Source: Rhodocyclales bacterium (GTDB lineage Bacteria > Pseudomonadota > Gammaproteobacteria > Burkholderiales > Rhodocyclaceae). Taken from it: a stretch of 45,319 nt of DNA. This document shows, one piece after another, positions 1 through 15,216 of this stretch. The notes beneath the pieces were generated by a model that did no database searches, had not been told where the DNA came from, and worked only from the letters and a program-made list of their open reading frames with translations. Location: contig JACRLX010000054.1 in the NCBI GenBank assembly GCA_016235165.1, forward strand, positions 1 to 45,319. Reading direction: 5' to 3'. The position numbers were made by a program, and so were the translations under genes. Each line of letters begins with the position of its first letter. Within the stretch, counting starts at the first letter, position 1.

Positions 1-221
1 CATCGGGGGTTGGGGGTGGTCCGTCCAGAATTCGCCAGATTGATCAAAATTCGATCAGCTCGCCTTGGCGGCACCCAACTCTATCCGTTACCCATATCTC
101 CCGGCCACTCCTTCACGGGCCTGTGAAATATCCGGGCTAGGGTCATGGCGACGCCATTGATCTCGGGAGGGTAGGTTTCGGTGACGATCGCGACGTGAAG
201 GGCCGGTCTCATCCCGCTCAC

Positions 222-608
222 TCAGGCCAGCACCAGGGCCCAACTGACCAGCACGTTGAGCAGTGCGACCAGCACGGCGGCGCTGCCGATGTCCTTGGCC
301 CGCTTCGACAGCCGGTGACGGTCGAGCGAGATGCGATCGATGGCGGCCTCGATGGCCGAATTGAGCAGTTCCACGATCAGCACCAGCAGGATGCTGCCGA
401 TCATGATGGCTTTGCCCATGCCGGAGGCCGGCAGCAGCAGGGCGGTCGGAATCAGCAGCGCCGCCAGCCAGGATTCCTGGCGAAACGCATCCTCGTTGCG
501 GTAGGCCGCCTGCAAGCCGGCGAGCGAGTAGTGGAGGGCGTTCCAGACGCGGCGCAAGCCGGTCTCGCCCTTGAACGGGCTTTCCTCGGCCAGGGGCTCA
601 TTGCTCAT
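222..608 (-). CDS. dgkA: Diacylglycerol kinase DgkA
   Basis: A 128-residue integral-membrane diacylglycerol kinase that phosphorylates diacylglycerol to phosphatidic acid with ATP, returning it to phospholipid synthesis. The family signatures are visible: YRNEDAFRQESW near residues 36-47, and ELLNSAIEAAIDRIS followed by KDIGSAAV in the second half. Three hydrophobic segments and the length match E. coli DgkA. The ATG overlaps the stop of the glycosyltransferase gene as ATGA, so it is the last gene of the lipid operon. In that setting it could recycle diacylglycerol released or left over by lipid remodelling; that role is inference, the enzyme identity is not. Confidence 0.95.
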   Translation of the reverse strand: MSNEPLAEESPFKGETGLRRVWNALHYSLAGLQAAYRNEDAFRQESWLAALLIPTALLLPASGMGKAIMIGSILLVLIVELLNSAIEAAIDRISLDRHRLSKRAKDIGSAAVLVALLNVLVSWALVLA

Positions 609-1897
609 CGTGTCGCCACCATCGGCTCGATGTCGAGACGCGGCGCCGGAGCGCGCAGCAGCGAGCGGTAGAGCGCGGCGAGGCGGGTGGCCTGGGCGTC
701 GGCGTCCCAGCCGCGGGCAAAGGCGATGGCTTCGCGGGACATGGCCTCCAGCCGTTGCGGATTGTCGAGCAACTGGTTCAGTTGCCGTGCGAACTCGGCG
801 GGTGTGTCCGCCGCCGGCAGCGCGCCGCGTGCCGGCGCGATGATCTCCGCCGCGCCCAGCGCCGGTATCGCCAGCACCGGCAGGCCGATCGCCATGGCTT
901 CCAGCAGGACCAGGCCCTGAGTTTCGGTTTGCGAGGCAAAGGTAAACACGTCCGCCGCTGCGTAACAATCGCGCAGGCCGCCATCGCGCGCCAGGTAGCC
1001 GACAAAGCGCACGTGGTCCCCGATGCGCAGGGCCTGCGCGCGGCGACGCAGGCTGGGCAGGGCCGGTCCTTCGCCGGCAACCACCAGCATCAGGTGAGGT
1101 TGCTTGCGGCGCGCCGCGGCGATGGCGTCGAGCAGGAAGTCGATGTTCTTTTCGAAGGCGGCACGGCCGACGAACAGGGCGATCAGGCGGGTCGGCGCGA
1201 TGCCCCACTGCTGGCGGAAACGGGCGCCGTTGCCGCGTATGAACTGGCTGTCCGGCAAGCCGGTGGGAATCACGTGCAGGGCGCGCCTGACGCCATAGTT
1301 GTGCAGCGTCTCGGCCATGGGGGACGAGGGCACCACCACGGCATCGAGCGCATTGCACTGGTGGCGTGCCAGGCTGCGTGCCGCCAGGCGCAGTGCCGCG
1401 CGCGGCAGGAAGCGGATGTAGTGGAACAGGTATTCCTCGAAGTGCGTGTGGTAAGTGGCGACGCAAGGGATGCGGCGGCGACGGGCAAAGCGCAGCCCGG
1501 CGTAATGCGCGGCGAAAGGGGTCTGGATGTGCACCAGGTCAAAGTCGGCGCTGGCGAGACGGCGATCCAGGGCGCCCAGTTCGCGCCAGTGCATCAATCG
1601 GTCTTCCGGATCGAAAGGAACGCCGCGCGAGGGCAGGCGCACCACCTCGGCGCAACTTGCCGCCGCTGTGTCCAGCGCGTGGTTGGCGCCCGGATATTCC
1701 GGCGCCACCAGGGTGATGCGGACGCCGAGGCGCGCCAATGCGCCACTGAAGGTTTCGATCGAGGTCGATACCCCGTTGACGCGGGGATGGCAGACATCGC
1801 TCACCATCAATACCCGCAGCCGTCCGCTGGGTATGGCACCGGACGCAAAGGCGGGCGGTTTGCCCGCGGCGTGTGTATCCGCGACAGACAGGTTCAT
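605..1897 (-). CDS. GT4-family glycosyltransferase, probable lipid glycosyltransferase
   Basis: A 430-residue GT4 (GT-B fold) glycosyltransferase. The N-terminus reads RVLMVSDVCHPRVNGVSTSI, the acceptor-domain start seen in SqdX, MgtA and PimB-type enzymes that glycosylate diacylglycerol or phosphatidylinositol at the inner membrane. The C-terminal donor domain has FVGRAAFEKNIDFLLDAI, a GEGPALPSL stretch and the E-x7-E motif in SQTETQGLVLLEAMA. The start is set by an ATGA overlap with the upstream olsB-like gene, and its stop overlaps dgkA in the same way. Acceptor and sugar cannot be read from sequence. A diacylglycerol acceptor is suggested by the neighbours; an exopolysaccharide role is the alternative. 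Confidence 0.85.
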   Translation of the reverse strand: MNLSVADTHAAGKPPAFASGAIPSGRLRVLMVSDVCHPRVNGVSTSIETFSGALARLGVRITLVAPEYPGANHALDTAAASCAEVVRLPSRGVPFDPEDRLMHWRELGALDRRLASADFDLVHIQTPFAAHYAGLRFARRRRIPCVATYHTHFEEYLFHYIRFLPRAALRLAARSLARHQCNALDAVVVPSSPMAETLHNYGVRRALHVIPTGLPDSQFIRGNGARFRQQWGIAPTRLIALFVGRAAFEKNIDFLLDAIAAARRKQPHLMLVVAGEGPALPSLRRRAQALRIGDHVRFVGYLARDGGLRDCYAAADVFTFASQTETQGLVLLEAMAIGLPVLAIPALGAAEIIAPARGALPAADTPAEFARQLNQLLDNPQRLEAMSREAIAFARGWDADAQATRLAALYRSLLRAPAPRLDIEPMVATR

Positions 1898-2682
1898 GCC
1901 GCGCTGGCGTCCGTGCCTTTCAGGAAGTGGCGCATGTAGCGCTTGTTCATGCGCGACATCGGCAGCAGCAGCAGCAGGTCGGCGGTATTGAAGTCCGGGT
2001 CCCAGGCCGGTTCGCCGCAGATCCAGGCGCCGACGCGCAGATAACCCTTGATCAGCGGCGGCACCATGGCCGGCTGGCTGTTGGCCAGGCGCTCGAAAGG
2101 CAGCCTGTGCTGGGGAAATACGTGGTATTCGGCGGGCGCCATGTGCTCCGGGCCGAGCTGGAAGAACAGGTTGGCGGCATTGTGGCCGCCATCGCCCATG
2201 CCGATCGAGGCGCAGCCGATCAGGCTGTCGTAGTTGTTGCTGAGCATGTAGTCGGCCAGGCCCGCCCACAGCAGCGTGATCACGGCGCCGCTGCGGTGGT
2301 CCGGATGGATGCAGGAGCGGCCGACTTCCACCATGCGCGGGCGCAGGTGCTGTAGCCGGTTGATGTGGAATTCGTTTTCGGAGTAGTAGTTGCCGACGCG
2401 GCGGGCGGCGGCCGGCGACAGGATGCGATAGGTGCCGACGATGCGTCCGGATTCGTTGTCGCGCACAATCAGGTGGTCGCAGAAGCGGTCGTAGTGATCG
2501 ATGTCGTGCCCGGCCAGGCGCGTCCGGACGTGGGCGCCGAGTTCCTCGACGAAGACCTTGTAGCGCAGGCGCTGGGCTTCGCGGACTTCTTCCTCACAGC
2601 GGGCGAGGGATACGCGGTAACTGTTTCGCGGCGCCAGCGCCGGGGCCAGTGCTTCGATGGTGTTCCGCTGGTTTGTCTGCAT
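1894..2682 (-). CDS. olsB: OlsB-like N-acyltransferase (GNAT fold, ornithine lipid synthesis)
   Basis: A 262-residue GNAT-fold protein of the OlsB/hemolysin-like acyltransferase family. OlsB transfers a 3-hydroxyacyl group from ACP to the alpha-amino group of ornithine to give lyso-ornithine lipid. Visible family marks are AQRLRYKVFVEELGA, DHYDRFCDHLIVRD, GTYRILSP, EVGRSCIHPDHR and the C-terminal PPLIKGYLRVGAWICGEPA. The gene lies 47 bp downstream of the PlsC/OlsA-like gene and overlaps the glycosyltransferase gene by 4 bp. Adjacent OlsB and OlsA homologues are the known two-enzyme route to ornithine lipids, which contain no phosphorus. Substrate is inferred from family and pairing. Confidence 0.85.
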   Translation of the reverse strand: MQTNQRNTIEALAPALAPRNSYRVSLARCEEEVREAQRLRYKVFVEELGAHVRTRLAGHDIDHYDRFCDHLIVRDNESGRIVGTYRILSPAAARRVGNYYSENEFHINRLQHLRPRMVEVGRSCIHPDHRSGAVITLLWAGLADYMLSNNYDSLIGCASIGMGDGGHNAANLFFQLGPEHMAPAEYHVFPQHRLPFERLANSQPAMVPPLIKGYLRVGAWICGEPAWDPDFNTADLLLLLPMSRMNKRYMRHFLKGTDASAA

Positions 2683-2729
2683 GGCGTTCCTTTCTCTCTC
2701 GGGTTCGCCTGCATTGTTGCGGCCGGGCG

Positions 2730-3608
2730 TTACGGGCTGATTGCCGCCGTATTACGAAGAGGTTGCAGGGACGGTGGGGCCGCCGGCCGCCGCCGCAGGA
2801 CGCTGGCTACCGCCTGGTGGGCGGAGTGGGCGACGTGGCGACGGTCGGCGTAAGGCGGGGTGAAACTCGCCGCCAGCCTCAGGCGAACCCGCAGCCCCGG
2901 CCTGCCGAGGATCCGGCGCAGGCAGTCGAGCAGGCTCAGCTCGTCGATGTAGGCCACCGTCGGCGAGGGATGGCCTTGATCGTCGACATAGTCGATGGCG
3001 AGCGCATGGATCGGTACCCCGGCGTCGATGGCAGCCTGAAACAAGGCGCTGTGAAAGGGCAGTACCCGGTCCCCGGCACTGGTCGTGCCTTCGGGGAAAA
3101 TCGACAATCGGTGTCCGGCGACCAGCATCGCGCCGATTTCCTGCTGCGTCCGCTGTGCCGATCTGCGCTTGCCGCGTTCTATGAATACCGTGCCGTTGCG
3201 CCGCGCCAGCCAGCCGATCAGGGGCCAGGAGGCGACATCGTCCTTGGCCACGAAGCCCGACGGCAAGGTGGCGTTGATGGCGAAAATGTCGACGAAAGAA
3301 ACGTGGTTGGCCACCAGCAGGCCGCTTCCGATTCGATCGAGATCGCCTTGCGCCGTCTCCAGCCTGATTCCGAGTAAGGCGAGCAGTTGCCGCGACCAGC
3401 AGCGTTTCAGCCTGTCGCGTGCGGCGGAACCTGCCAATGGAAAACAGATCACCACCTGCGTGGCGCCCCATAACAGGTGCAGGCCAATCAGGGTCAGGCG
3501 GAAATACACCGGCAGGGCAAGCAGGCTGCGCATCGGCGGGAAGTTTGGCGGGAGACTGTTACCGGCCGATGAATGTCCGGACTCCGCGATCGGCCGTATT
3601 TGAGCCAT
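2730..3608 (-). CDS. 1-acyl-glycerol-3-phosphate acyltransferase family protein (PlsC/OlsA-like)
   Basis: A membrane-associated O-acyltransferase of up to 292 residues. It has the HX4D catalytic motif in NHVSFVD, the IERGKR segment, and FPEGTTS for phosphate or substrate binding. PlsC makes phosphatidic acid; the paralogue OlsA acylates lyso-ornithine lipid. Being directly upstream of the OlsB-like gene favours OlsA, but sequence alone does not separate the two. The listed start is the longest one. An internal ATG at 3533 ([13 protein letters not shown]) begins the conserved hydrophobic N-terminus and would leave about 150 bp of shared promoter before pstS. Neither start has a strong ribosome-binding site. 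First gene of the lipid operon. Confidence 0.87.
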
Positions 3609-3611
3609 GTG

Positions 3612-3645
3612 GTTTCATGGGGCTGTAACAATTGCCACCTAGACT
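3612..3645 (+). promoter_or_regulatory. Pho-box-like PhoB site with -10 ahead of pstS
   Basis: Positions 3612-3629 read GTTTCAT-GGGG-CTGTAAC, two direct half-sites 11 bp apart. They match the CTGTCAT-N4-CTGTCAY Pho-box pattern at 11 of 14 informative positions. A TAGACT -10-like hexamer lies at 3640-3645, ten bases beyond, the spacing expected when PhoB replaces a -35 element. The site sits upstream of pstS and next to the divergent lipid operon, so it might serve both. It is a manual match, not scored against a matrix. Confidence 0.5.
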
Positions 3646-3682
3646 GCCGGCTGAACATATTGCAACGCACAAAGGAGTCCCG

Positions 3683-4669
3683 ATGAAATCCCTGCAAATC
3701 ACTGCCGCCGTCGCCGGCATTTTCCTTTCCACCTCCGCCTTTTCGCAGGCCCTGGTCAAGATCGACGGTTCCTCGACCGTGTATCCGATTACCGAAGCCG
3801 TTGCAGAAGAATTCCAGAAAACGAAGAAGAACGCGGTCAAGGTAACCGTGGGCATTTCCGGCACGGGCGGCGGCTTCAAGAAGTTCTGCCGCGGCGAGAC
3901 CGACATCTCCGACGCCTCGCGCCCGATCCTGAAAAAGGAAATGGACGACTGCGCCAAGGCGGGCATCAAGTATGTCGAACTGCCGGTGGCCTTCGACGCG
4001 TTGACCGTGGTGGTGCACCCGAAGAACAGCTTCATCAGCCAACTCACCGTCGCTGAGCTGAAGAAGATGTGGGAACCGGCGGCCCAGGGCAAGATCACCA
4101 AGTGGAACCAGGTCAATCCGGCCTGGCCCGATGCGCCACTCAAGCTCTTCGGCGCCGGCGCAGATTCAGGCACTTTCGATTACTTCACCGAAGCCATCAA
4201 TGGCAAGTCGAAGTCCAGCCGCGGCGACTTCACTGCTTCCGAAGACGACAACGTGCTGGTGCAGGGCGTTTCGCGCGACAACAACGCGCTGGGCTTCTTC
4301 GGCTTTGCCTACTACGAGGAAAACAAGGGCAAGCTGAAGGCCGTGCCCATCGTCAATCCGAAAGGCAAGGCGGTGACGCCCTCGATCGAGGCCGTGATGG
4401 CAGGCGAATACGAGCCGCTGGCGCGTCCGATCTTCATCTACGTCAATGCCAGGTCGATCGACAAGCCGGAGGTCAGGGAGTTCGTCGAGTTCTACCTGAA
4501 GCAGGGCGGCAAGCTGGCCAAGGAGGTCAAGTATGTGCCGCTGGCCGATGCCGACTACAAGCATGCGATGGAGAATTTCAGCAAGAAGAAGACCGGCACC
4601 GCCTTCGGTGGCGAAGCCGAGGTTGGGGTCAAGGTTTCCGATCTGCTGAAGCGCAATCCGAAGGAATAA
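3683..4669 (+). CDS. pstS: Phosphate ABC transporter substrate-binding protein PstS
   Basis: A 328-residue periplasmic phosphate-binding protein of the PstS/SphX type. Residues 1-23 form a Sec signal peptide ending in SAFSQA. Phosphate-pocket loops are seen as [27 protein letters not shown] and [12 protein letters not shown]. The ATG at 3683 is preceded by AAGGAG at good spacing; an earlier in-frame start at 3632 would put 17 residues in front of the signal peptide and is rejected. It captures phosphate for PstCAB. A strong hairpin follows the gene, which may let pstS transcript outnumber the membrane-subunit transcripts. Confidence 0.95.
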
Positions 4670-4681
4670 ACTTCTCCCGCC

Positions 4682-4715
4682 TGGGGCAGCTGCCGGTTTG
4701 CCGGCGACTGCCCCA
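4682..4715 (+). terminator. Long hairpin between pstS and pstC (attenuator or mRNA stabiliser)
   Basis: TGGGGCAG at 4682-4689 pairs with CTGCCCCA at 4708-4715, and GCCGG (4692-4696) pairs with CCGGC (4701-4705) around a TTTG loop, with one mismatch and one wobble between the two blocks. No U-run follows, so partial termination or 3'-end protection of pstS mRNA is more likely than full termination. pstC begins 60 bp later. Confidence 0.55.
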
Positions 4716-4774
4716 CGCTGCAAGCCTGCCCAAGCCGCTGCAATCGATTGAATCAACCGTTTCCGGAACTCCGC

Positions 4775-5728
4775 ATGAGTGCAAGCGCATCTGCGCCATC
4801 CGTCTCCTTGCCGATCGGCAAGGGCATCAGCGACCGCCTGCGCAAGAAGGCATCGCGTCACGTCAAGGAACGCATCATCGAGTTCCTGTTGTTTTGTGCC
4901 GCCGCGTTTTCGGTGTTCGTCACCGTCGCCATCGTCTGGGTGCTGGTCAAGGAGTCCTGGGTTTTTTTCGAAACTGTTCCGCTGTCGGATTTTCTGTTCG
5001 ACACGCAATGGACGCCGCTGTTCGACGATGCCCATTACGGCATCATGGTGCTGCTGTCGGGAACCATCACCAGTTCGGCCGTGGCCTTGGTGGTAGCGAT
5101 TCCGCTGGGCACCGTCATTGCCCTGTATCTTTCCGAATTCGCCGGCTTCAAGCTGCGCGAAATCGCCAAGCCCTTCCTCGAACTGCTCGGCGGCGTTCCG
5201 ACCATCGTTTATGGCTATTTCGCCCTGACCTTCCTGACGCCCATCCTGCAGAAGATCTATCCGGACCTGCCGGGCTTCAACCTGCTTTCGGCCGGTCTGG
5301 TAATGGGTGTCATGATCATTCCCTATGTCGCTTCCCTGTCCGAAGACGCCATGCGCGCGGTGCCGATGTCGCTGCGCGAGGGCTCCTACGCCATGGGCGC
5401 GACGCGCCTGCAGACTGCCTTGTGGGTGGTGACCCCGGCGGCCACGTCCGGCATCGCCTCGGCTTATATCCTCGGCATCTCGCGCGCCGTGGGCGAGACC
5501 ATGATCCTCGCCGTGGCGGCAGGTATGCAGCCCAAGCTGACTTTCAACCCGACCGAGCCGGGCGCGACCATCACCTCTTACATCGTGCAGGTGGCGCTGG
5601 GCGACCTGCCGCATGGTTCGATCGGCTACCAGACGATTTTCGCCGCCGGCCTTACGCTGTTGCTGATGACCCTGGCCTTCAACCTGCTCGGCTACTGGCT
5701 GCGCAAGCGCTTCCGCGAGGTGTATTGA
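4775..5728 (+). CDS. pstC: Phosphate ABC transporter permease PstC
   Basis: A 317-residue inner-membrane permease, one half of the phosphate channel. The cytoplasmic N-terminal tail (about 30 residues) is followed by six hydrophobic segments. The binding-protein-dependent permease loop appears as DAMRAVPMSLREGSYAMGAT and the later ISRAVGETMILAVAAG. The ATG at 4775 (MSASASAPS) is chosen over an in-frame TTG at 4748, because ATG is preferred and CCGGAAC lies just upstream; the difference is nine residues. The stop is one base before pstA, so the two subunits are probably coupled in translation. Confidence 0.93.
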   Translation: MSASASAPSVSLPIGKGISDRLRKKASRHVKERIIEFLLFCAAAFSVFVTVAIVWVLVKESWVFFETVPLSDFLFDTQWTPLFDDAHYGIMVLLSGTITSSAVALVVAIPLGTVIALYLSEFAGFKLREIAKPFLELLGGVPTIVYGYFALTFLTPILQKIYPDLPGFNLLSAGLVMGVMIIPYVASLSEDAMRAVPMSLREGSYAMGATRLQTALWVVTPAATSGIASAYILGISRAVGETMILAVAAGMQPKLTFNPTEPGATITSYIVQVALGDLPHGSIGYQTIFAAGLTLLLMTLAFNLLGYWLRKRFREVY

Positions 5729-5729
5729 G

Positions 5730-6656
5730 ATGCTCCAGAGCGCCGACCTCGACGCCATCCGCGCCATCATCGCCCGTGCCAAGCGCTGGGACATGTTCTT
5801 TGCCCTGCTCGGCATCCTGTCGCTGATGGTGGGTGTGCTGACCTTCACCGCGCTGTTCGTCGATATGGCGATCCAGGGCGTGCCGCGCCTCGATTTCGAG
5901 TTCTTTACCAGCTTTCCGTCGCGTCGCGCCGCCAACGCTGGCATCCTGTCGGCCTGGGTCGGTACGGTACTGGTGATGCTGGTGACGGCACTGGCGGCCG
6001 TTCCGCTTGGCGTGGCTGCCGGCGTCTACCTCGAAGAGTACGCGCCGAAGAACTGGATCACCGACATCATCGAAATCAACATCAGCAACCTGGCCGGCAT
6101 TCCCTCGATTGTCTATGGCCTGCTGGCGCTGGGACTGTTCGTGTATTACTTCGGCTTCGGCCAGAGCATCCTCTCCGCCGGACTGACCCTGGCACTGCTG
6201 ATCCTGCCGGTGATCATCGTCGCCACGCGCGAGGCGATCCGCGCCATTCCGCAGTCGATACACGAGGGCTCTTATGCCTGCGGCGCCACCACCTGGCAGA
6301 CGGTCAGCGACCACATCCTGCCGTATTCCAGCGCCGGCATTCTCACCGGCGTCATCATCGGCATGGCGCGCGCCATCGGCGAGACGGCACCCATCATCAC
6401 CATCGGCGCGCTGACCTTCATTGCCTTCCTGCCTCCGGCTCCGTTTGCGGGCGATCCACCGGCCGGTTTGTTCGAGTGGATCTTCGCGCCCTTCACGGTA
6501 ATGCCGATCCAGATGTTCAACTGGACCTCGCGTCCGGAAGCCGCCTTTACCGTCAATGCGGCGGCGGCGGGTTTCGTGCTGGTCTTCATGACCCTGGCCA
6601 TGAACGGCCTGGCAATTTACGTGCGCTATCGTCTGCGCAAAAACATCAAGTGGTGA
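5730..6656 (+). CDS. pstA: Phosphate ABC transporter permease PstA
   Basis: A 308-residue inner-membrane permease that pairs with PstC. It shows six hydrophobic segments, the conserved [16 protein letters not shown] stretch, and the ABC-contact loop [20 protein letters not shown] followed by [17 protein letters not shown]. The start is one base after the pstC stop. It ends six bases before the pstB ATG, giving the standard pstSCAB order in one transcript. No residues look unusual for the family, and the length is normal. Confidence 0.94.
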
Positions 6657-6661
6657 ACCCC

Positions 6662-7465
6662 ATGCAGATACCAAGCGGGCTCGAAGCCGGCGTCGAAGGC
6701 GACTTGCTGAAGGCGGAAGTACGCGATCTCGATTTCTACTATGGCGGCTTTCACGCCCTCAAGCACGTCACGATGCCGGTTCATGACCGCAAGGTGACGG
6801 CGCTGATCGGTCCTTCGGGTTGCGGTAAATCAACGCTGCTGCGCTGTTTCAATCGCATGCACGACCTGTATCCGGGCAACAGATATGCGGGCGGCGGCAT
6901 CGTGCTGCACCCGGACAACACCAACCTGCTGGCGCAGGAAGTCGATCCGATCGAAGTCCGCATGCGCATCAGCATGGTGTTCCAGAAGCCGAATCCCTTC
7001 CCCAAGTCGATCTACGAAAACGTGGCCTACAGCCTGCGCGTGCGTGGCATGCGCAACAAGAACGAGCTCGACGATCGCGTCGAGGCCGCGCTCAAGGGCG
7101 CCGCCTTGTGGAACGAGGTCAGCAACCGCCTCAACGAGCTGGGTGCCAACCTGTCCGGCGGTCAGCAGCAGCGGCTTTGCATCGCCCGTGCCCTGGCCTC
7201 CGACCCGGAGATCATCCTGTTCGACGAGCCGACCTCGGCGCTCGACCCGATCGCCACCGCGAGCATCGAGGAACTGGTGACCGAACTCAAGGAAAACGTC
7301 ACCATCCTGATCGTGACCCACAACATGCAGCAGGCGGCGCGAATCTCGGATTTCACCGCCTACATGTACCTGGGCGAAATGGTCGAGTTCGGCATTACCG
7401 ACCAGATCTTCATCAAGCCGACCAAGAAGGCGACCGAGGACTACATCACGGGTAGATTCGGCTGA
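6662..7465 (+). CDS. pstB: Phosphate ABC transporter ATP-binding protein PstB
   Basis: A 267-residue cytoplasmic ATPase that powers phosphate import. The Walker A motif GPSGCGKST is at residues 50-58, the ABC signature LSGGQQQR is mid-protein, and the Walker B region is [14 protein letters not shown]. The C-terminus has the PstB-typical [28 protein letters not shown]. The start ATG at 6662 follows the pstA stop by five bases. Unlike many pst operons, no phoU gene follows, and phoB/phoR are not in the window, so signalling from the transporter must use genes elsewhere. Confidence 0.96.
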
Positions 7466-7610
7466 AGCTGAGCCTGATGTAGCGTCTATATTGCCGGCGT
7501 CCTGTCTGGCCGGCGGGGCCATTGTCAAGCAGTAAATCGCCGTCCCGCCAGCGCCGACTTTTACCCAAGTGCGAAAGCCTACCCGGTGCCGCACACATGC
7601 AGCCGGCGGC

Positions 7611-7644
7611 GTCTCACTATGTCGTTGCAAGTCTCATATTGAGA
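7611..7644 (+). promoter_or_regulatory. Paired palindromic sites, candidate upstream activator binding sites
   Basis: TCTCA-TAT-TGAGA at 7632-7644 is a perfect inverted repeat. A degenerate copy (TCTCA-CTA-TGTCG) begins exactly 20 bases earlier at 7612, so both lie on the same face of the helix. They sit about 110-130 bp upstream of the predicted sigma-54 promoter, the usual distance for an enhancer bound by an activator such as the AcoR-like protein encoded at 11913-13805. The link to that protein is inferred. Confidence 0.4.
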
Positions 7645-7732
7645 TGCCGGGCGGCATGAACGACTCCGTCGCACTTCTGCAAGCCGTTGATTAGCAATGG
7701 CTGAGCCGACGCCCTGGCGCCGACCTCGAAGC

Positions 7733-7748
7733 GGGAACGCTTGTTGCA
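7733..7748 (+). promoter_or_regulatory. Sigma-54-type (-24/-12) promoter candidate
   Basis: The sequence GGGAACGCTTGTTGCA has GG and GC elements 12 bases apart, a perfect TTGCA -12 box and a degenerate -24 box (GGGAAC against TGGCAC). A start near 7759 would give a roughly 240-base leader to the Tat-signal subunit gene. Support comes from the sigma-54 activator gene at the end of the same gene cluster. The weak -24 element keeps confidence moderate. Confidence 0.4.
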
Positions 7749-7791
7749 GCTAGACGGCGAGCATTTCCAAAAACAATATTGAGGAGATTTC

Positions 7792-8001
7792 ATGGCAAAC
7801 GCCAGCAGAGCAGGCCTGCGCTCGTCCGCCCACCGCCGATTCCTATCCGTCGCCCAGTCGGCGATTCGAAGGCGTATCCCGTTCCGGCGGCTCGGGCGAG
7901 CGGCGCAAACGTCAGCGGACGCATCGCTACACGGCATTCCCGTGCCCACTCACAAGCGCAACACCCGATCCACAAACACCACACGGAGGAGTATCAGATG
8001 A
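7792..8001 (+). CDS. Small Arg-rich reading frame in the operon leader (uncertain)
   Basis: A 69-codon frame starting MANASRAGLR, with GAGGAG five bases before its ATG, which is a better ribosome-binding site than most genes here. Its TGA overlaps the ATG of the next gene as ATGA, so it could couple translation of the dehydrogenase small subunit. The product is rich in Arg, Ser and Thr, has no recognisable domain, and the composition is what a non-coding GC-rich frame would give. It may be a leader peptide, a remnant of a former gene start, or chance. Confidence 0.25.
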   Translation: MANASRAGLRSSAHRRFLSVAQSAIRRRIPFRRLGRAAQTSADASLHGIPVPTHKRNTRSTNTTRRSIR

Positions 8002-8591
8002 GTACGTTGAGGCCCGAAGCATTTCGGTCATTGGAGTACGTGGAGAATCTCGGCAGGCGGGATTTCCTGCGCATATCGGCGGCGGCGGCTAGCCTGTTCG
8101 CCTGCGGCAGCCTGCTGCAACCAGTGGCCGCGCTGGCCGCGCTGCCCTCAGGCATCAAGCACATGAGCGAAGACGAGTACGCGGTGCTGCGCAAGCTCAT
8201 GGAAGTCATGCTGCCGACGCAGGGCACCGCGCTGCTGCCGATCGACAAGATCCCGGTACTGCAAACGCTCGACGGCGCACTGCTGGCCACCATGGAGCCG
8301 CACATACTGAAGGGGCTCAAGGGCGGCATCGCCTATTTCAACGACGGCCCCCTGGGCGCGTACGGCAAGCGTTTCGTCGACCTCGCGGAAGCCGACGCGA
8401 TGCGCTTTTGCGATAGCTGGGCCGACTCCGCGGTAGTCCCCCAGCGTGCCTTGGCGATGGGCCTGAAGAAGCTGGTCGGGCTGGCCTACTGGGCCAATCC
8501 GCCGACCTGGGCACCGCTGGGCTATGACGGTCCGGTAAGCAAGCGCTGGGGGCTCCAGTCCTACGGCAACGCACCCCTTCCCAAGCACTGA
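7998..8591 (+). CDS. Tat-signal small subunit of a GMC dehydrogenase (gluconate 2-dehydrogenase subunit 3-like)
   Basis: A 197-residue protein with a twin-arginine signal: GRRDFLRIS at residues 19-27, then an Ala/Leu-rich stretch to about residue 50. C36 in LFAC could act as a lipobox. The mature part resembles the small gamma-type subunits of FAD alcohol and sugar dehydrogenases, which carry the cofactor-loaded GMC subunit through the Tat system as a hitch-hiker. GGAGGAG precedes the ATG. It lies 17 bp upstream of the GMC gene, which has no signal of its own, fitting that role. No cytochrome c subunit is next to it, so the electron acceptor is unknown. Confidence 0.75.
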   Translation: MSTLRPEAFRSLEYVENLGRRDFLRISAAAASLFACGSLLQPVAALAALPSGIKHMSEDEYAVLRKLMEVMLPTQGTALLPIDKIPVLQTLDGALLATMEPHILKGLKGGIAYFNDGPLGAYGKRFVDLAEADAMRFCDSWADSAVVPQRALAMGLKKLVGLAYWANPPTWAPLGYDGPVSKRWGLQSYGNAPLPKH

Positions 8592-8608
8592 TTCCGCGGA
8601 GAGAAACC

Positions 8609-10171
8609 ATGAGCAAGAAAATTGCGGTGAAAGCGGCGGCGCACGGCCTCAAGCTGGTCCAGGCCAGCGACGTCAAGGACAGCAGCATCCAGCTCAAGGC
8701 CGACGTGGTGATCGTCGGCTCCGGCGCCGGCGGCGCCATTGCCGCCTACGAACTGGCATCGAAGGGCAAGAAGGTCGTGGTGCTCGAAGCCGGGCCCTAC
8801 GTGCCCTCGGAAAAGTTCACGGAAATGATGGCCATTGCCATGGGCACCCTCTACCAGGACCATGGCGGGCAAGCCAATGCCAACGGCGACATCACCGTCC
8901 TGCAGGGCGCATGCGTCGGCGGTTCCACGGTGGTGAACGCGGCGCTGTGCTTCCGCACGCCGGACTACTACCTGAAGCTTTGGGGCAAGGAATTCGGGCT
9001 CACCAACCTGACATCCAAAGTCATGAAGCCCTATTTCGAGAAAATCGAGAAGAACCTCCAGATTCGTCCCAACAAGAAGCAGGAAACCAGCGTCGGCGCG
9101 GAATTGATCAACAAGGGCCTGAAGAAACTTGGGCTGCCGCCCGGCATCGCCAAGCGCAATGTCAAGGACTGTGGGCTCTCCGGTTTCTGCTTCGCCGGTT
9201 GCGTGTCGGATCGCAAGCAGTCGATGCTGGTGACCTACCTGCCCTGGGCGGTCGAGAAGGGCGCGACGATCTATGCCGATACCCGCGTGGTCAAGGTCCT
9301 CGCCGACCAGGGCAAGGCCAGCGGTGTGCTCGCCGAAGTGGTCGATCCGGCCAGCGGCCAGAAGAAGGCCGAGCTGCGCGTCGATGCGCCGATCGTGGTG
9401 CTCGCCGCCGGGCCGGTGCAGACGCCGGTGCTGCTGATGAAGAGCGGGCTGGGCAATTCCAGCGGCCAGGTGGGGAAGAATTTCGCCTGCCATCCGACCA
9501 TGTCGCTCACCGCCGAATTCGACAATGCCGTGGACGATTTCCATGGCGCCACGCATTCGCTGTACATGGACAAATACACCCTCCCCGAAGAAGGCGGCTA
9601 CCTCCTGCTCAACGCCGTGCAGGACCCGGTGGAAGCCAGTTTCCAGGTCGAGCCCGGCAGCGGCAAGCCCTACATGGCCTACATGAGCCGCTATCGCAAC
9701 ACGATCCGGCTGATCACCCTGATCCACGACAAGAACGTCGGCGAGGTGACGTGGAAGGACGGCGTCAAGCAGATCAACTATTCGGTCGACGACGAGGACT
9801 TCAAGGCCATGAAGCAGGGGCTCAAGACCAATGCCCGGGTGCTGTTCGCCGCCGGCGCCCGGCGTGTCTACCTGCCGACATCGCAGCGCCTGGTGATCGA
9901 GGACGCGAGCCGGATCGATGCCGTGATCGACGGCCTCAAAAACGAACCGGCGCGCTACCGCTACACCTCCTTCCACCCCCAGGGTACCTGCCGCATGGGG
10001 GCAGATCCCAGGCGCAGCGTGGTCAATCCGCAGGGCGAGGCGCACGACGTGAAGAACCTCTACATCGCCGACGCCAGCCTGCTGCCGACCTCGATCGGCT
10101 ACAACCCCTCGGAAACCGTGTATGCGCTGGCCAATTACATCAGCGACCGGATCATTGCCGCACATCCCTGA
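8609..10171 (+). CDS. GMC-family FAD-dependent alcohol dehydrogenase, large subunit
   Basis: A 520-residue GMC oxidoreductase. The FAD-binding motif VGSGAGG is at residues 36-42 with VVVLEAG following. The substrate-side GMC motif is seen as GACVGGSTVVNAALCFRTP. The C-terminal active site has HPQGTCRMG near residue 456 and the NPSETVYALAN segment near 500. A Cys cluster, C188-x5-C194-x3-C198, sits where related dehydrogenases carry CxxCGxCxxGC, so one of four cysteines is missing. Together with the Tat small subunit and the XylC-like enzyme it probably oxidises a primary, perhaps benzylic or terpene-like, alcohol in the periplasm or at the membrane. Substrate is unknown. Confidence 0.85.
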   Translation: MSKKIAVKAAAHGLKLVQASDVKDSSIQLKADVVIVGSGAGGAIAAYELASKGKKVVVLEAGPYVPSEKFTEMMAIAMGTLYQDHGGQANANGDITVLQGACVGGSTVVNAALCFRTPDYYLKLWGKEFGLTNLTSKVMKPYFEKIEKNLQIRPNKKQETSVGAELINKGLKKLGLPPGIAKRNVKDCGLSGFCFAGCVSDRKQSMLVTYLPWAVEKGATIYADTRVVKVLADQGKASGVLAEVVDPASGQKKAELRVDAPIVVLAAGPVQTPVLLMKSGLGNSSGQVGKNFACHPTMSLTAEFDNAVDDFHGATHSLYMDKYTLPEEGGYLLLNAVQDPVEASFQVEPGSGKPYMAYMSRYRNTIRLITLIHDKNVGEVTWKDGVKQINYSVDDEDFKAMKQGLKTNARVLFAAGARRVYLPTSQRLVIEDASRIDAVIDGLKNEPARYRYTSFHPQGTCRMGADPRRSVVNPQGEAHDVKNLYIADASLLPTSIGYNPSETVYALANYISDRIIAAHP

Positions 10172-10194
10172 AACGACAAACGGAGACAACAGAC

Positions 10195-11655
10195 ATGAAC
10201 GCACCTGCGACTTCCCGCTGGGAAGGAAGGATTTTTCTGGGCGACTGGGTGGCCGCACGCGGCAGCAGCCTTCCCGTCGTCGAGCCGGCCACCGGCGCCA
10301 CGCTGGGCATGCTCGGCATCGCCAATGGCGAGGACGTGGATGAGTCCGTGCGCATCGCCGCCGAAGCCCAGCCCGGCTGGGCTGCCACCGCGTTCGACCG
10401 GCGCGCGGAAATCCTGCGCGAGGTCGCGCGCCTGCTGAAGGAGCGGGCCGCCGAACTCAACGACTGGAACATCCGCGAATGTGGGTCGATTCCGCCCAAG
10501 GCGGAATGGGAGTTGCAGGCCAGCTACGAGCAGGCCCACATGGCGGCGGCCATGCCGATGCAGGCGATCGGGCAGGTGTTTCCGTCGTCGATGCCGGGGC
10601 GCAGCAACTATTGGCAACGCATTCCGATCGGCGTCGTCGGCGTCATCGCGCCATGGAATTTCCCCCTCCTGCTCGGACTGCGCTCGGTGCTGCCGGCGCT
10701 GGCGCTGGGCAATGCCGTGATCCTCAAGCCGGACGCGCAGAGCGCGGTCTGCGGCGGCCTCTTGCTGGCCGAACTGTTCGCCGACGCCGGCCTGCCGCAG
10801 GGCGTGCTGCACGTTCTGCCCGGCGGCGGCGCCACCGGCGACGCACTGGTCAAGCACCCCGGCGTCGGCATGATCTCGTTTACCGGGTCCACGGCGGTGG
10901 GCCGCCAGATCGGCGAGACCTGCGGCCGCATGCTGAAGAAGGTGGCCCTGGAGCTGGGCGGCAACAATGCCATGGTGATCCTCGACGATGCCGACCTCGA
11001 CAGCGCGAGTTCCTGCGCCGCCTGGGGCGCCTTCCTGCACCAGGGCCAGATCTGCATGCAGGCCGGACGCCACCTGGTGCAGCGCAAGGTCGCCGGACGC
11101 TACATCGAGTTGCTGGCGGAGCGCGCCGCGCGCCTGGTGGTCGGCAATCCGGCGGCCGGCCCGGTGCATCTCGGGCCGCTGATCAATGATCGCCAGGCCG
11201 AAAAAGTCGAAGCCATCGTGCAGCGCTCCGTGGCAATGGGCGCCAAGGCCGTGGTCGGCGGCAATCGCCAGGGGCGCTTCTATCCGGCGACGGTGCTCTC
11301 CGGCGTGACGCCGGACATGCCGGCCTTCACCGACGAGATCTTCGGCCCGGTCGCGCCCGTCACCGTCTTCGACAGCGACGAGGAGGCCATCGCGCTGGTC
11401 AACAGTTCGCCGTATGGTCTGGCCGCCGCTGTGCACGGCGCCTCGGCGGCGCGCGCCCTGGCGCTGGCGTCGCGGCTCAAGTCGGGCATGGTGCACGTCA
11501 ATGACCAGACCGTGAACAACGAATTCCAGGTGCCCTTCGGCGGCATGGGCGCCTCCGGCAACGGCGGCCGCTTCGGCGGGCCGGCGAGCTTCGAGGAATT
11601 CACCCAGAGCCAGTGGATCAGCGTCATGGAGCGGGGCATACAGTACCCGTTCTGA
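10195..11655 (+). CDS. Aldehyde dehydrogenase, benzaldehyde dehydrogenase (XylC-like)
   Basis: A 486-residue NAD(P)-dependent aldehyde dehydrogenase. Segments such as ANGEDVD, DWNIRECGSI, PGRSNYWQRIPIGVVGVIAP, FLHQGQICMQAGRHLV and the end GGRFGGPASFEEFTQSQWIS closely resemble the benzaldehyde dehydrogenase XylC of the TOL pathway. The catalytic Glu is near residue 253 (ALELGG) and the catalytic Cys near 287 (QICM). The gene starts 23 bp after the GMC gene with GGAGAC upstream. It would convert the aldehyde made by the GMC enzyme to a carboxylic acid in the cytoplasm. Aromatic specificity is inferred from resemblance to XylC recalled from memory. Confidence 0.88.
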   Translation: MNAPATSRWEGRIFLGDWVAARGSSLPVVEPATGATLGMLGIANGEDVDESVRIAAEAQPGWAATAFDRRAEILREVARLLKERAAELNDWNIRECGSIPPKAEWELQASYEQAHMAAAMPMQAIGQVFPSSMPGRSNYWQRIPIGVVGVIAPWNFPLLLGLRSVLPALALGNAVILKPDAQSAVCGGLLLAELFADAGLPQGVLHVLPGGGATGDALVKHPGVGMISFTGSTAVGRQIGETCGRMLKKVALELGGNNAMVILDDADLDSASSCAAWGAFLHQGQICMQAGRHLVQRKVAGRYIELLAERAARLVVGNPAAGPVHLGPLINDRQAEKVEAIVQRSVAMGAKAVVGGNRQGRFYPATVLSGVTPDMPAFTDEIFGPVAPVTVFDSDEEAIALVNSSPYGLAAAVHGASAARALALASRLKSGMVHVNDQTVNNEFQVPFGGMGASGNGGRFGGPASFEEFTQSQWISVMERGIQYPF

Positions 11656-11672
11656 CGTTCATGGCCTGGGCC

Positions 11673-11702
11673 CACGGGCCGTCCTGCAGCGGGCGGCCCG
11701 TG
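11673..11702 (+). terminator. Hairpin after the aldehyde dehydrogenase gene
   Basis: CACGGGCCG at 11673-11681 and CGGCCCGTG at 11694-11702 form a perfect 9-bp stem with a 12-base loop, 18 bases after the stop. There is no U-run, so it may be a weak or Rho-assisted terminator that separates the dehydrogenase genes from the regulator gene. Confidence 0.45.
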
Positions 11703-11817
11703 TCGTTACAATGGAAAACAGTCTGCGCGTGACGGACGCCGTAACGCTCATGGCGCCGAGCGCCACCTGCCGCAGATGAAACGCGCGAAAGGCGAATTGA
11801 AGGCCCCCCACCCCCAT

Positions 11818-11835
11818 CCCCGCCCCAGGGCGGGG
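11818..11835. repeat. GC-rich palindrome upstream of the acoR-like gene
   Basis: CCCCGCCC and GGGCGGGG form an 8-bp perfect inverted repeat separated by CA, within a C-rich stretch (11802-11826) and followed by GCTCGCTTCGCTCG. It resembles dispersed REP-like elements of GC-rich genomes. It lies 78 bp before the regulator start. No promoter could be picked with confidence in the 257-bp gap. Confidence 0.35.
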
Positions 11836-11912
11836 TTACCATACGGCTCGCTTCGCTCGACTGTCACCAGTCGCTCCGAACGAGTTGTTTCACGTTAAGG
11901 AGGAGACAAGCC

Positions 11913-13805
<1,893 letters not shown>

Positions 13806-13884: not shown

Positions 13885-14004
13885 CTACTCTGAAGGCAGC
13901 CTCGGATGACAGTTGGCGCAGGCGAACGCTTTGCGTATCTGGGATTCCGCCTTATGTCCCGCAGGGGCGGTATCCATTCGGATACCTGCAGGTAACGGTA
14001 CTCA
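13885..14004 (-). other. In-frame heme-c motif tail beyond the mauG-like stop codon
   Basis: After the TGA (14004-14002) ending the diheme protein gene, the same frame continues open for 38 codons to a TAG. It contains an ATG at 13977 and reads through AFACANCHPRLPSE, a canonical CxxCH heme-c site. A perfect 7-bp hairpin (GGTATCC/GGATACC) begins 15 bases after the TGA. The tail may be a C-terminal domain cut off by a stop mutation, a readthrough or recoding product, or a 30-residue peptide started at 13977. The sequence does not decide between these. Confidence 0.4.
13969..13986 (-). repeat. Perfect hairpin just downstream of the mauG-like stop
   Basis: GGTATCCATTCGGATACC forms a 7-bp stem with a 4-base loop, 15 bases beyond the TGA on the minus strand. 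There is no U-run, so it is a poor intrinsic terminator. Its place after an in-frame TGA is reminiscent of, but not proof of, a bacterial SECIS-like element. It may equally be a simple 3'-end hairpin. Confidence 0.45.
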
Positions 14005-15216
14005 GCGCAGGGGCACGTCGCACGCCGCAACCGCGGGTGGCACGACCGGTGCCAACAGCGCTTCGCGCGCTGAAAGCGATTCCAGAAACGCAATGAGGTC
14101 TGTGCTCTCGGCCTCGCTTAGCCTGAGCGGCTTGAGGATGCGTTCGCCGTCGCTATGCAGGCGGTCTTCGTCGATTTCCGAATAATGGCGCACGACATCG
14201 CGCAGCGTGGCCAGGCTGCCGTTATGCATGTATGGAGCGGTGTATTTGAGATTGCGCAGGCTGGGCACCTTGAACTCGCCGAAATTGCGATGCTCGGGCT
14301 TCAGGTGGCGGGTTGCCGTGGCATTATCCCCGGTCGCATCGTCATTGTGGCGGCCAAGCAGATTGTAGGGGTTGGCCAGCAAGCGCTTGATGCCGCCCTG
14401 GCGCCCCGGGTCGACGCCTTCCGGCTTGACGAAGAAGGGCACGCCGATGTCGCCGAATTCGCCATTGCTGAACAAGGGGCCGGCATGGCAGGTGGCGCAC
14501 TGTCCGCGGCCGAGGAACAGGCGCAGTCCGCGCCGCAGTGCCGGGGCATGGCTGGCGACGGCATCGTCGTCGCCGCGCAGGAGCGCCTCGCGCAGCGCAT
14601 CGAAGTGCGTGGAGGGCGAGACCAGGGTTTCCTGCCAGGCCGCGATTGCCTTGGCCACGTTCACCAGGAGTTCTTCGTCGCGGGCGTCGGGCGCCTTGCC
14701 GAAGGCTTGCCGGTAATGACAGTCCAGCTCCGTCTGGCTGCGTAACAAGCGGACGGTACGCCGCGCATCGCCGCCCATTTCGGCCGGATCGAGGATGGGC
14801 CGCAGGCTGGCCGACCACAGGTTGTCGTGGCCGCCATCCCAGCCGAACCAGCGGTGCTGGCCGACATTGAATAGCCCCGGAGTATTGCGCTTGCCTGGCC
14901 GCAGGCCGCGTGCGGTGGCAAGCCCGTCCTGAAAGCCCCGCCCCGGCTGGTGGCAGGTGGCACAGGCGATCCGTCGATTGGCGGCAAGGCGCGGCTCGAA
15001 AAACAGGTGATATCCCAGACGGATGGCGGCCGGATTGCCGGAGACGCGATTGCCGGTATCCGTCTTCGCCGGCATGGGCCAGGGCCCATGGCTGGCGATG
15101 CGTGCGATTTCGTCCGCCGAAAACTCCGCTTCCCCGGCTTGCGCCGACGGCACCGATGTCAGCACGAGGATGCAGACCAGTGGCCGGATCAGGAACTTAT
15201 CGAATTTGAACGTCAT
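14002..15216 (-). CDS. Diheme cytochrome c peroxidase/MauG-family protein
   Basis: A 404-residue exported diheme protein. Residues 1-27 are a Sec signal ending in AQA. Heme sites are CATCH at 85-89 and 240-244. Family features include KRNTPGLFNVG, WDGGHDNLWSASLRPI, and APYMHNGS near 327-333, where a Met or His can ligate the second heme. The conserved fold ends near residue 382 (DLIAFLESLS); a 22-residue tail follows. Members either reduce hydrogen peroxide or, like MauG and MbnH, oxidise a partner protein. The start overlaps the YtkA-like gene by 20 bp. The third CxxCH after the stop is described separately. Confidence 0.9.
   Translation of the reverse strand: MTFKFDKFLIRPLVCILVLTSVPSAQAGEAEFSADEIARIASHGPWPMPAKTDTGNRVSGNPAAIRLGYHLFFEPRLAANRRIACATCHQPGRGFQDGLATARGLRPGKRNTPGLFNVGQHRWFGWDGGHDNLWSASLRPILDPAEMGGDARRTVRLLRSQTELDCHYRQAFGKAPDARDEELLVNVAKAIAAWQETLVSPSTHFDALREALLRGDDDAVASHAPALRRGLRLFLGRGQCATCHAGPLFSNGEFGDIGVPFFVKPEGVDPGRQGGIKRLLANPYNLLGRHNDDATGDNATATRHLKPEHRNFGEFKVPSLRNLKYTAPYMHNGSLATLRDVVRHYSEIDEDRLHSDGERILKPLRLSEAESTDLIAFLESLSAREALLAPVVPPAVAACDVPLR

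Follow-up and report, generated by a model that had tools for sequence, protein, structure and literature searches.

Divergent phosphate uptake and predicted lipid-remodelling genes in a Sulfuritalea-like bacterium: a probable phosphate starvation locus with exchanged pst operons among its relatives

Gene content of the divergent locus

The DNA analysed here (the window) spans contig JACRLX010000054.1 (C50) from end to end, 45,319 bases of a Rhodocyclales genome of 4.47 Mb in 57 contigs. Close to one end, an olsA-olsB-GT4-dgkA operon (3533-222, minus strand), whose predicted products would make phosphorus-free membrane lipids, is divergent to the phosphate uptake operon pstSCAB (3683-7465, plus strand). 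A sequence-only reading had placed the two back to back, and all eight genes were indeed confirmed in this layout. Among the named records with an OlsB relative (59-91% identity), 5 of 20 are Sulfuritalea, and most of the others bear the names Rhodocyclales, Rhodocyclaceae, one of its named genera or beta proteobacterium. Judged by these names, the genome is Sulfuritalea-like (Rhodocyclaceae).

The four Pst subunits are encoded in order, each scoring above its curated TIGR cut-off: pstS (3683-4669), for a phosphate-binding protein of what we term type 1 (TIGR02136, 312 bits), pstC (4748-5728, start uncertain; TIGR02138, 258 bits), pstA (5730-6656; TIGR00974, 270.5 bits) and pstB (about 6668-7465, start uncertain; TIGR00972, 367 bits). 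The lipid operon begins with an olsA-like gene for a lyso-ornithine-lipid O-acyltransferase (2730-3533, a longer start at 3608 being possible; PF01553, with HX4D and PEGT motifs), followed by an olsB-like gene for an ornithine N-acyltransferase (1894-2682; PF13444), a gene for a GT4 glycosyltransferase (gt4a, 605-1897; PF00534 and PF13439, with an EX7E motif), putatively acting on diacylglycerol (DAG), and the DAG kinase gene dgkA (222-608; PF01219, 115 bits, scanned as 222-605). Since the start of gt4a overlaps the olsB stop and the start of dgkA overlaps the gt4a stop, olsB, gt4a and dgkA very probably form one operon.

The OlsA- and OlsB-like assignments made from the letters alone hold in that the corresponding NCBIfam models were the best matches, though with scores below the curated cut-offs. 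Two OlsB models led for the OlsB-like protein with 183 and 178 bits (cut-offs 320 and 350, so that the equivalog cut-off was missed), more than 120 bits ahead of the next NCBIfam model, OlsF (54 bits); judging by their names, the OlsB models seem to be built round Brucella and Rhodobacter proteins. For the OlsA-like protein, the OlsA models were best with 137 and 134 bits (cut-off 300), and the PlsC-type model TIGR00530 gave 93 bits (cut-off 103). The best NCBIfam model for the gt4a product was alpha-monoglucosyl-DAG synthase, with 124 bits (cut-off 400).

A split gt4b gene and plcP beyond the contig edge

The left edge of the lipid operon, as first read, is not a gene boundary. Positions 1-140 belong to an insertion sequence (IS) with multiple copies in the genome; they form one of its ends, with a terminal repeat at 124-140, and lie inside the next gene of the operon, gt4b, which encodes a second GT4 glycosyltransferase. 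There are two GT4 genes, where the sequence-only reading had named one. The first 25 codons of gt4b lie at 137-212 (minus strand; tblastn with the gt4b of a relative's locus, L100, gave 61% over 28 amino acids at 212-129), and the remainder was found on contig C24 (8,372 bases), from 7119 to about 8234 on the minus strand (71% over residues 17-396). The best lipid-glycosyltransferase models scored 157 bits on the C24 part and 143 bits on the L100 protein (cut-off 480).

The stretch at 1-140 recurs with 98-100% identity in seven other places of the genome, on C57, C48, C39, C24, C12, C53 and C5, all at or near contig ends. Because this sequence adjoins or lies close to eight contig ends, the element would account for part of the assembly breaks, probably including the end of the window's contig. 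On C9, a related element within the contig has a gene for a transposase with the PF13701 domain (IS1380 type); in the copy at the window's edge, the middle of which is unassembled, no such domain was found. The terminal repeat is also present at C24:123-139 and C24:8231-8247. The C24 end near gt4b is unlike positions 1-140 of the window and opens with the same repeat, inverted; we take it as the other end of the same element. CTAG was found at both gt4b/IS junctions. These features indicate that gt4b is split by the insertion sequence and that the contig broke at that point. C24 was placed after C50 by gene order and the split gene, and no read spans the join. As gt4b is split, its product is probably lost in this genome, and expression of the downstream plcP may be reduced.

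Adjoining gt4b on C24 (6295-7110) is a gene for a calcineurin-like metallophosphatase (PF00149), 83% identical to that of a relative and with the motifs DxHLG (DxH), GDxxD, GNHD and GHxH. We take the enzyme to be a probable PlcP, a name based on the motif and backed by the context, as its gene adjoins gt4b and the protein differs from the genome's LpxH. It had been noted that no PlcP is in the window and that the step must be elsewhere or absent; the gene is elsewhere, past the IS-broken edge, and its absence from the genome was therefore rejected. That the enzyme is an LpxH is judged unlikely. The genome has its own LpxH on C45 (261 bits on PRK05340, cut-off 134), whereas the cassette phosphatase reached only 49.7 bits on TIGR01854 (cut-off 190) and 48.3 bits on PRK05340, and the two proteins are 27% identical over 138 columns.

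In relatives, the operon reads olsA-olsB-gt4a-dgkA-gt4b-plcP, often followed by a gene with CHAD and CYTH domains. Of the latter, just the last part (residues about 394-505) was matched, in two frames, at about 5926-6260 on C24. The gene thus looks truncated here, while several relatives in the genus carry a long copy.

PHO-box-like repeats in the control region

The short region between the two operons carries a PHO-box-like repeat towards either side. The published PHO box consensus is CTGTCATNNNNCTGTCAT (PMC8528852); we searched with the pattern KTMAY-N5-TGTMAY, a looser version of the published layout, and obtained expectations from dinucleotide shuffles. The repeat facing pstS (3613-3629, plus strand) reads TTTCATGGGGCTGTAAC and is exact to the pattern; a -10-like element, TAGACT (3640-3645, plus strand), follows 10 bases past it, and TAGACT or TAAACT is found at equal spacing in the 21 type-1 loci of the genus. 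The repeat facing the lipid operon (3558-3573, minus strand) has one mismatch and aligns with exact copies in relatives. The form TTYAYNNNNCTGTAAC occurs a single time in the 4.47-Mb genome, at this locus; the reversed control pattern also occurs once. PhoB is encoded on C52 (350 bits, cut-off 296), with a PhoR-domain kinase directly after it.

Among 37 paired intergenic regions from related, and thus not independent, genomes, the pattern faced pstS in all 37 (shuffles expect 0.03 loci). It faced the lipid operon exactly in 19 (0.05 expected) and at no more than one mismatch in 30 (1.0 expected). In the genus, each of the 24 loci that start with olsA had a lipid-facing box at one mismatch or less, and 18 had an exact one. 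The pattern was chosen after matches to a position weight matrix (PWM) were known, so that the ten loci added later are the fair test; here, the box faced pstS in 10/10 and the lipid operon in 9/10. Furthermore, of 48 cassette runs without pstS in the fetched stretch, 17 had a sense box; among 701 other genes, 28 did (Fisher test, p 9e-11). The background genes came from loci L039-L118; within L099-L118, the pst genes and the lipid genes had not been masked, which can only raise the background.

Conservation of the gene pair in relatives

The sequence-only reading had proposed a search of related genomes for the same divergent pair, with lack of conservation as a refutation; the proposal came through this test, as the pair recurs in relatives. 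OlsB was matched in 162 of 199 genomes of the family, and PlcP in 249 of 395 genomes at E 1e-30; across the order, 125 of 250 genomes had a PlcP match. Loci were then mapped in 103 genomes from 59 genera, picked for an OlsB, PlcP or PstS match and mostly one per genus, plus the window's own genus. In 37 genomes, spread over ten genera, pstS has a lipid gene as its direct divergent neighbour: these are 27 of the 31 genomes of the window's genus (21 with type 1 and 6 with type 2 pst, some operons being cut by contig ends) and members of nine further genera.

In many other genera, olsB-olsA and plcP-gt4 cassettes are located away from pst, and many such loci, among them L045 and L068, have olsB ahead of olsA on one strand. 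A pst-linked operon that includes olsA starts with it. Outside the family, pst was found in 3 of the 20 stretches read, two of which were just about 4 kb. All three are from one family (f43): in 3 of 4 genomes there, plcP-gt4a-gt4b adjoins pst, which is type 1 in one genome and type 2 in the other two, and the orientations differ from that in the window.

The closest relative by OlsB (G181, locus L043) has just olsA-olsB at the locus, without gt4a, dgkA, gt4b and plcP, and a PlcP search of its genome gave no match. Together with the split gt4b of the window, this hints that the glycolipid half may be decaying in the sub-lineage of the two.

Two non-orthologous types of pst beside the same lipid genes

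The neighbouring pst operon is of two non-orthologous types. Type 1 is that of the window, with a TIGR02136 PstS; in type 2, the mature part of PstS begins near AAEITGAGATFPAP, and PstC and PstA are about 30% alike to those of type 1. At E 1e-40, type 1 PstS was matched in 23 and type 2 in 7 of the 31 genus genomes, both in none and neither in one, several of the genomes being incomplete drafts.

A tree of 44 concatenated cassettes, 27 of them with pst typed, was calculated with a quick IQ-TREE run and carries SH-aLRT support only. On this lipid-gene tree, at least 6 changes of pst type are needed to explain the 24 direct pairs, 3 of them within the 16 genus rows; three typed rows with pst not directly divergent were left out of the count, and with them there are 7. 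The type-1 genome G001 and the type-2 genome G317 are close sisters (support 100). The genus's type 2 operons form distinct groups interspersed with those of other genera, although the deeper forks have moderate support (94 and 80) and one row is just 43% filled.

The promoter was partly kept through these changes. A 33-base core comprising the PHO box and the -10 element of type 1 pstS is identical at 27-33 of 33 positions in the 21 type-1 genus loci (27 in the window), and it is kept at 30-32 of 33 before type 2 pstS in G225, G270, G317 and G399, with shuffles reaching at most 22. It is not kept in the type-2 loci G151 and G305 (20-21/33), so that 4 of 6 type-2 genus loci retain it. Read most simply, one pst operon took the place of another behind a promoter that stayed; alternatively, recombination may have brought in pst and promoter together. 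Many of the genomes are probably metagenome-assembled, and single cases could be binning errors, though both pst types share contigs with cassettes. Tentatively, and at somewhat less than even odds, we suggest that the control region and lipid operon stayed fixed while non-orthologous pst operons were exchanged in place several times, under selection for joint control of uptake and remodelling.

Flanking genes

Between pstB and a gene at 14002-15216, positions 8031-13805 carry a Gluconate_2-dh3/GMC dehydrogenase pair and apparent genes for an aldehyde dehydrogenase and a sigma-54 activator. In the relatives' loci L043 and L040, a gene similar to 14002-15216, judged by eye, directly follows pstB; the block therefore appears to have been inserted in the lineage of the window. 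From about 17000 to 37500, the translations resemble succinate dehydrogenase and complex I (nuo) runs, with tpiA- and secG-like genes between them. An Rfam search of positions 1-12000 gave no match.

A model for the locus and its alternatives

The conserved pairing, the PHO boxes, PhoBR and PlcP support the earlier proposal of a single phosphate starvation locus. At low phosphate, PhoR-PhoB would act on the short control stretch that separates the operons, and PhoB would activate pstSCAB, for high-affinity uptake, on one side and the lipid operon on the other. OlsB and then OlsA would make ornithine lipid. PlcP would cleave phospholipids to DAG, which the gt4a and gt4b products would convert to glycolipids, and DgkA would return surplus DAG to phosphatidic acid. 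These enzyme roles are assigned by analogy to the pathways in Pseudomonas aeruginosa, Methylosinus, marine bacteria and Desulfovibrio alaskensis; low-phosphate induction and the lipid products are likewise predictions from sequence. We put the probability that this is a PhoB-controlled locus joining phosphate uptake and membrane remodelling at roughly 80%. In this group of freshwater bacteria, the uptake and lipid halves often appear to stay paired even where pst has been exchanged for an unrelated set, and the pairing would be kept by selection for joint control.

Several observations weigh against this model. OlsA, OlsB and both GT4 enzymes stay under the curated NCBIfam cut-offs. The exact lipid-facing box is missing in 18 of the 37 pairs, the window included, and the exact sense box in 31 of the 48 cassette runs without pst. 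A PWM of E. coli PHO boxes gave shuffle p values of 0.0-0.3 per locus, often not significant singly; the pattern counts above pool the loci. The pair was not seen in 49 of the 59 genera sampled, and it is absent from three of the 31 genus genomes (G294, G328 and G339; in G394, the contig ends at the locus). Moreover, the 33-base core is present at 30-31/33 in G339 (L207) and G294 (L208), where type 1 pstS stands without the lipid genes; since it is kept there, the pstS-facing promoter would serve pst independently of the lipid operon. Near the expected position of that operon, G339 has a CHAD gene.

If pst alone were under Pho control, the lipid operon would be constitutive or tied to another stress, such as pH or envelope stress. 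Burkholderia sensu stricto are indeed described as making ornithine lipids constitutively (PMC7814305), and the imperfect lipid-facing box of the window, with exact copies in just 19/37 regions, fits such a view. However, the lipid-facing box at one mismatch or less in every olsA-first locus of the genus and the roughly ninefold frequency of boxes before cassette runs away from pst, relative to other genes, make this explanation unlikely. The two operons might also be neighbours by chance or descent, with no joint control: the direct pair is found in just 10 of 59 genera, its order is shared by kinship, and three genus genomes do without it. Against this stand the changes of pst type with the pair retained, the two PstS types never found together within the genus, the PHO-box-like sites towards both operons and the f43 genomes, which have plcP-gt4a-gt4b beside either pst type in other orientations. 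We regard gene order without joint control as very unlikely.

Slighter still is the likelihood that the cassette makes surface polysaccharide or lipid A, with the GT4 enzymes acting on envelope sugars and the metallophosphatase being an LpxH. GT4 enzymes are hard to distinguish from sequence, and the best named matches of the phosphatase are the LpxH models and a solved structure of a UDP-2,3-diacylglucosamine hydrolase. But the genome has a separate LpxH, the cassette enzyme is far under the LpxH cut-offs and its cassette neighbours are dgkA and olsAB. Also, the best models for the GT4 enzymes, though below cut-off, are lipid glycosyltransferases.

Comparison with known systems

P. aeruginosa likewise has PlcP and two GT4-type enzymes that make glycolipids, with PHO boxes in the promoters, but plcP-agt1 (PA3219-PA3218) and agt2 (PA0842) lie at separate sites; the text consulted mentions no adjoining pst, and olsB is absent from the main text (PMC8528852). 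In the present locus, by contrast, plcP, two GT4 genes, dgkA and the ols genes form one predicted operon divergent to pst. In marine bacteria, plcP was also described beside glycosyltransferase genes with predicted PHO boxes; unlike here, none of the six arrangements set out names pst, ornithine-lipid genes or dgkA beside plcP, and the terms pst and diacylglycerol kinase are absent from the main text (PMC4796936). In Methylosinus trichosporium, plcP-agt is needed for glycolipid and ornithine lipid is overproduced at low phosphate; however, the olsA and olsB locus tags are non-consecutive and not placed by plcP, and the text consulted describes no linkage to pst (PMC9239053). When D. alaskensis was limited for phosphate, glycolipid and ornithine lipid took the place of most phospholipid, and agt and pst mutants both had fitness defects, as reported in PMC5193443.

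Nearest to the locus are the exchangeable islands of marine HIMB59, which hold pst, PhoR-PhoB, glycosyltransferase, diacylglycerol kinase and polyphosphate genes and an LpxH-named hydrolase, but no ols genes are described in the text consulted, and the terms remodel and plcP are absent from the main text (PMC10734472). Its authors assign LpxH to lipid A biosynthesis and see no direct phosphorus function for the glycosyltransferase and the kinase. By analogy to the present cassette, the LpxH-named gene beside the two may be a PlcP. Among the open-licence papers listed by our searches, none described the joint arrangement or pst swapping, which does not prove their absence in print. The parts of the locus are already known, and the joint arrangement and the swapping are new relative to the literature searched.

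Biological significance

In the literature compared, lipid-remodelling genes are separate Pho targets. The present locus brings phosphate capture and predicted routes to both classes of phosphorus-free lipids together in one divergent unit, and joint control is therefore testable at one short region. That the transporter was exchanged repeatedly next to one set of lipid genes, in some cases behind a retained promoter, offers a natural experiment on why neighbouring genes stay linked. The locus also suggests that glycosyltransferase, dgkA and LpxH-named genes of further phosphate islands, such as those of HIMB59, may have a part in remodelling.

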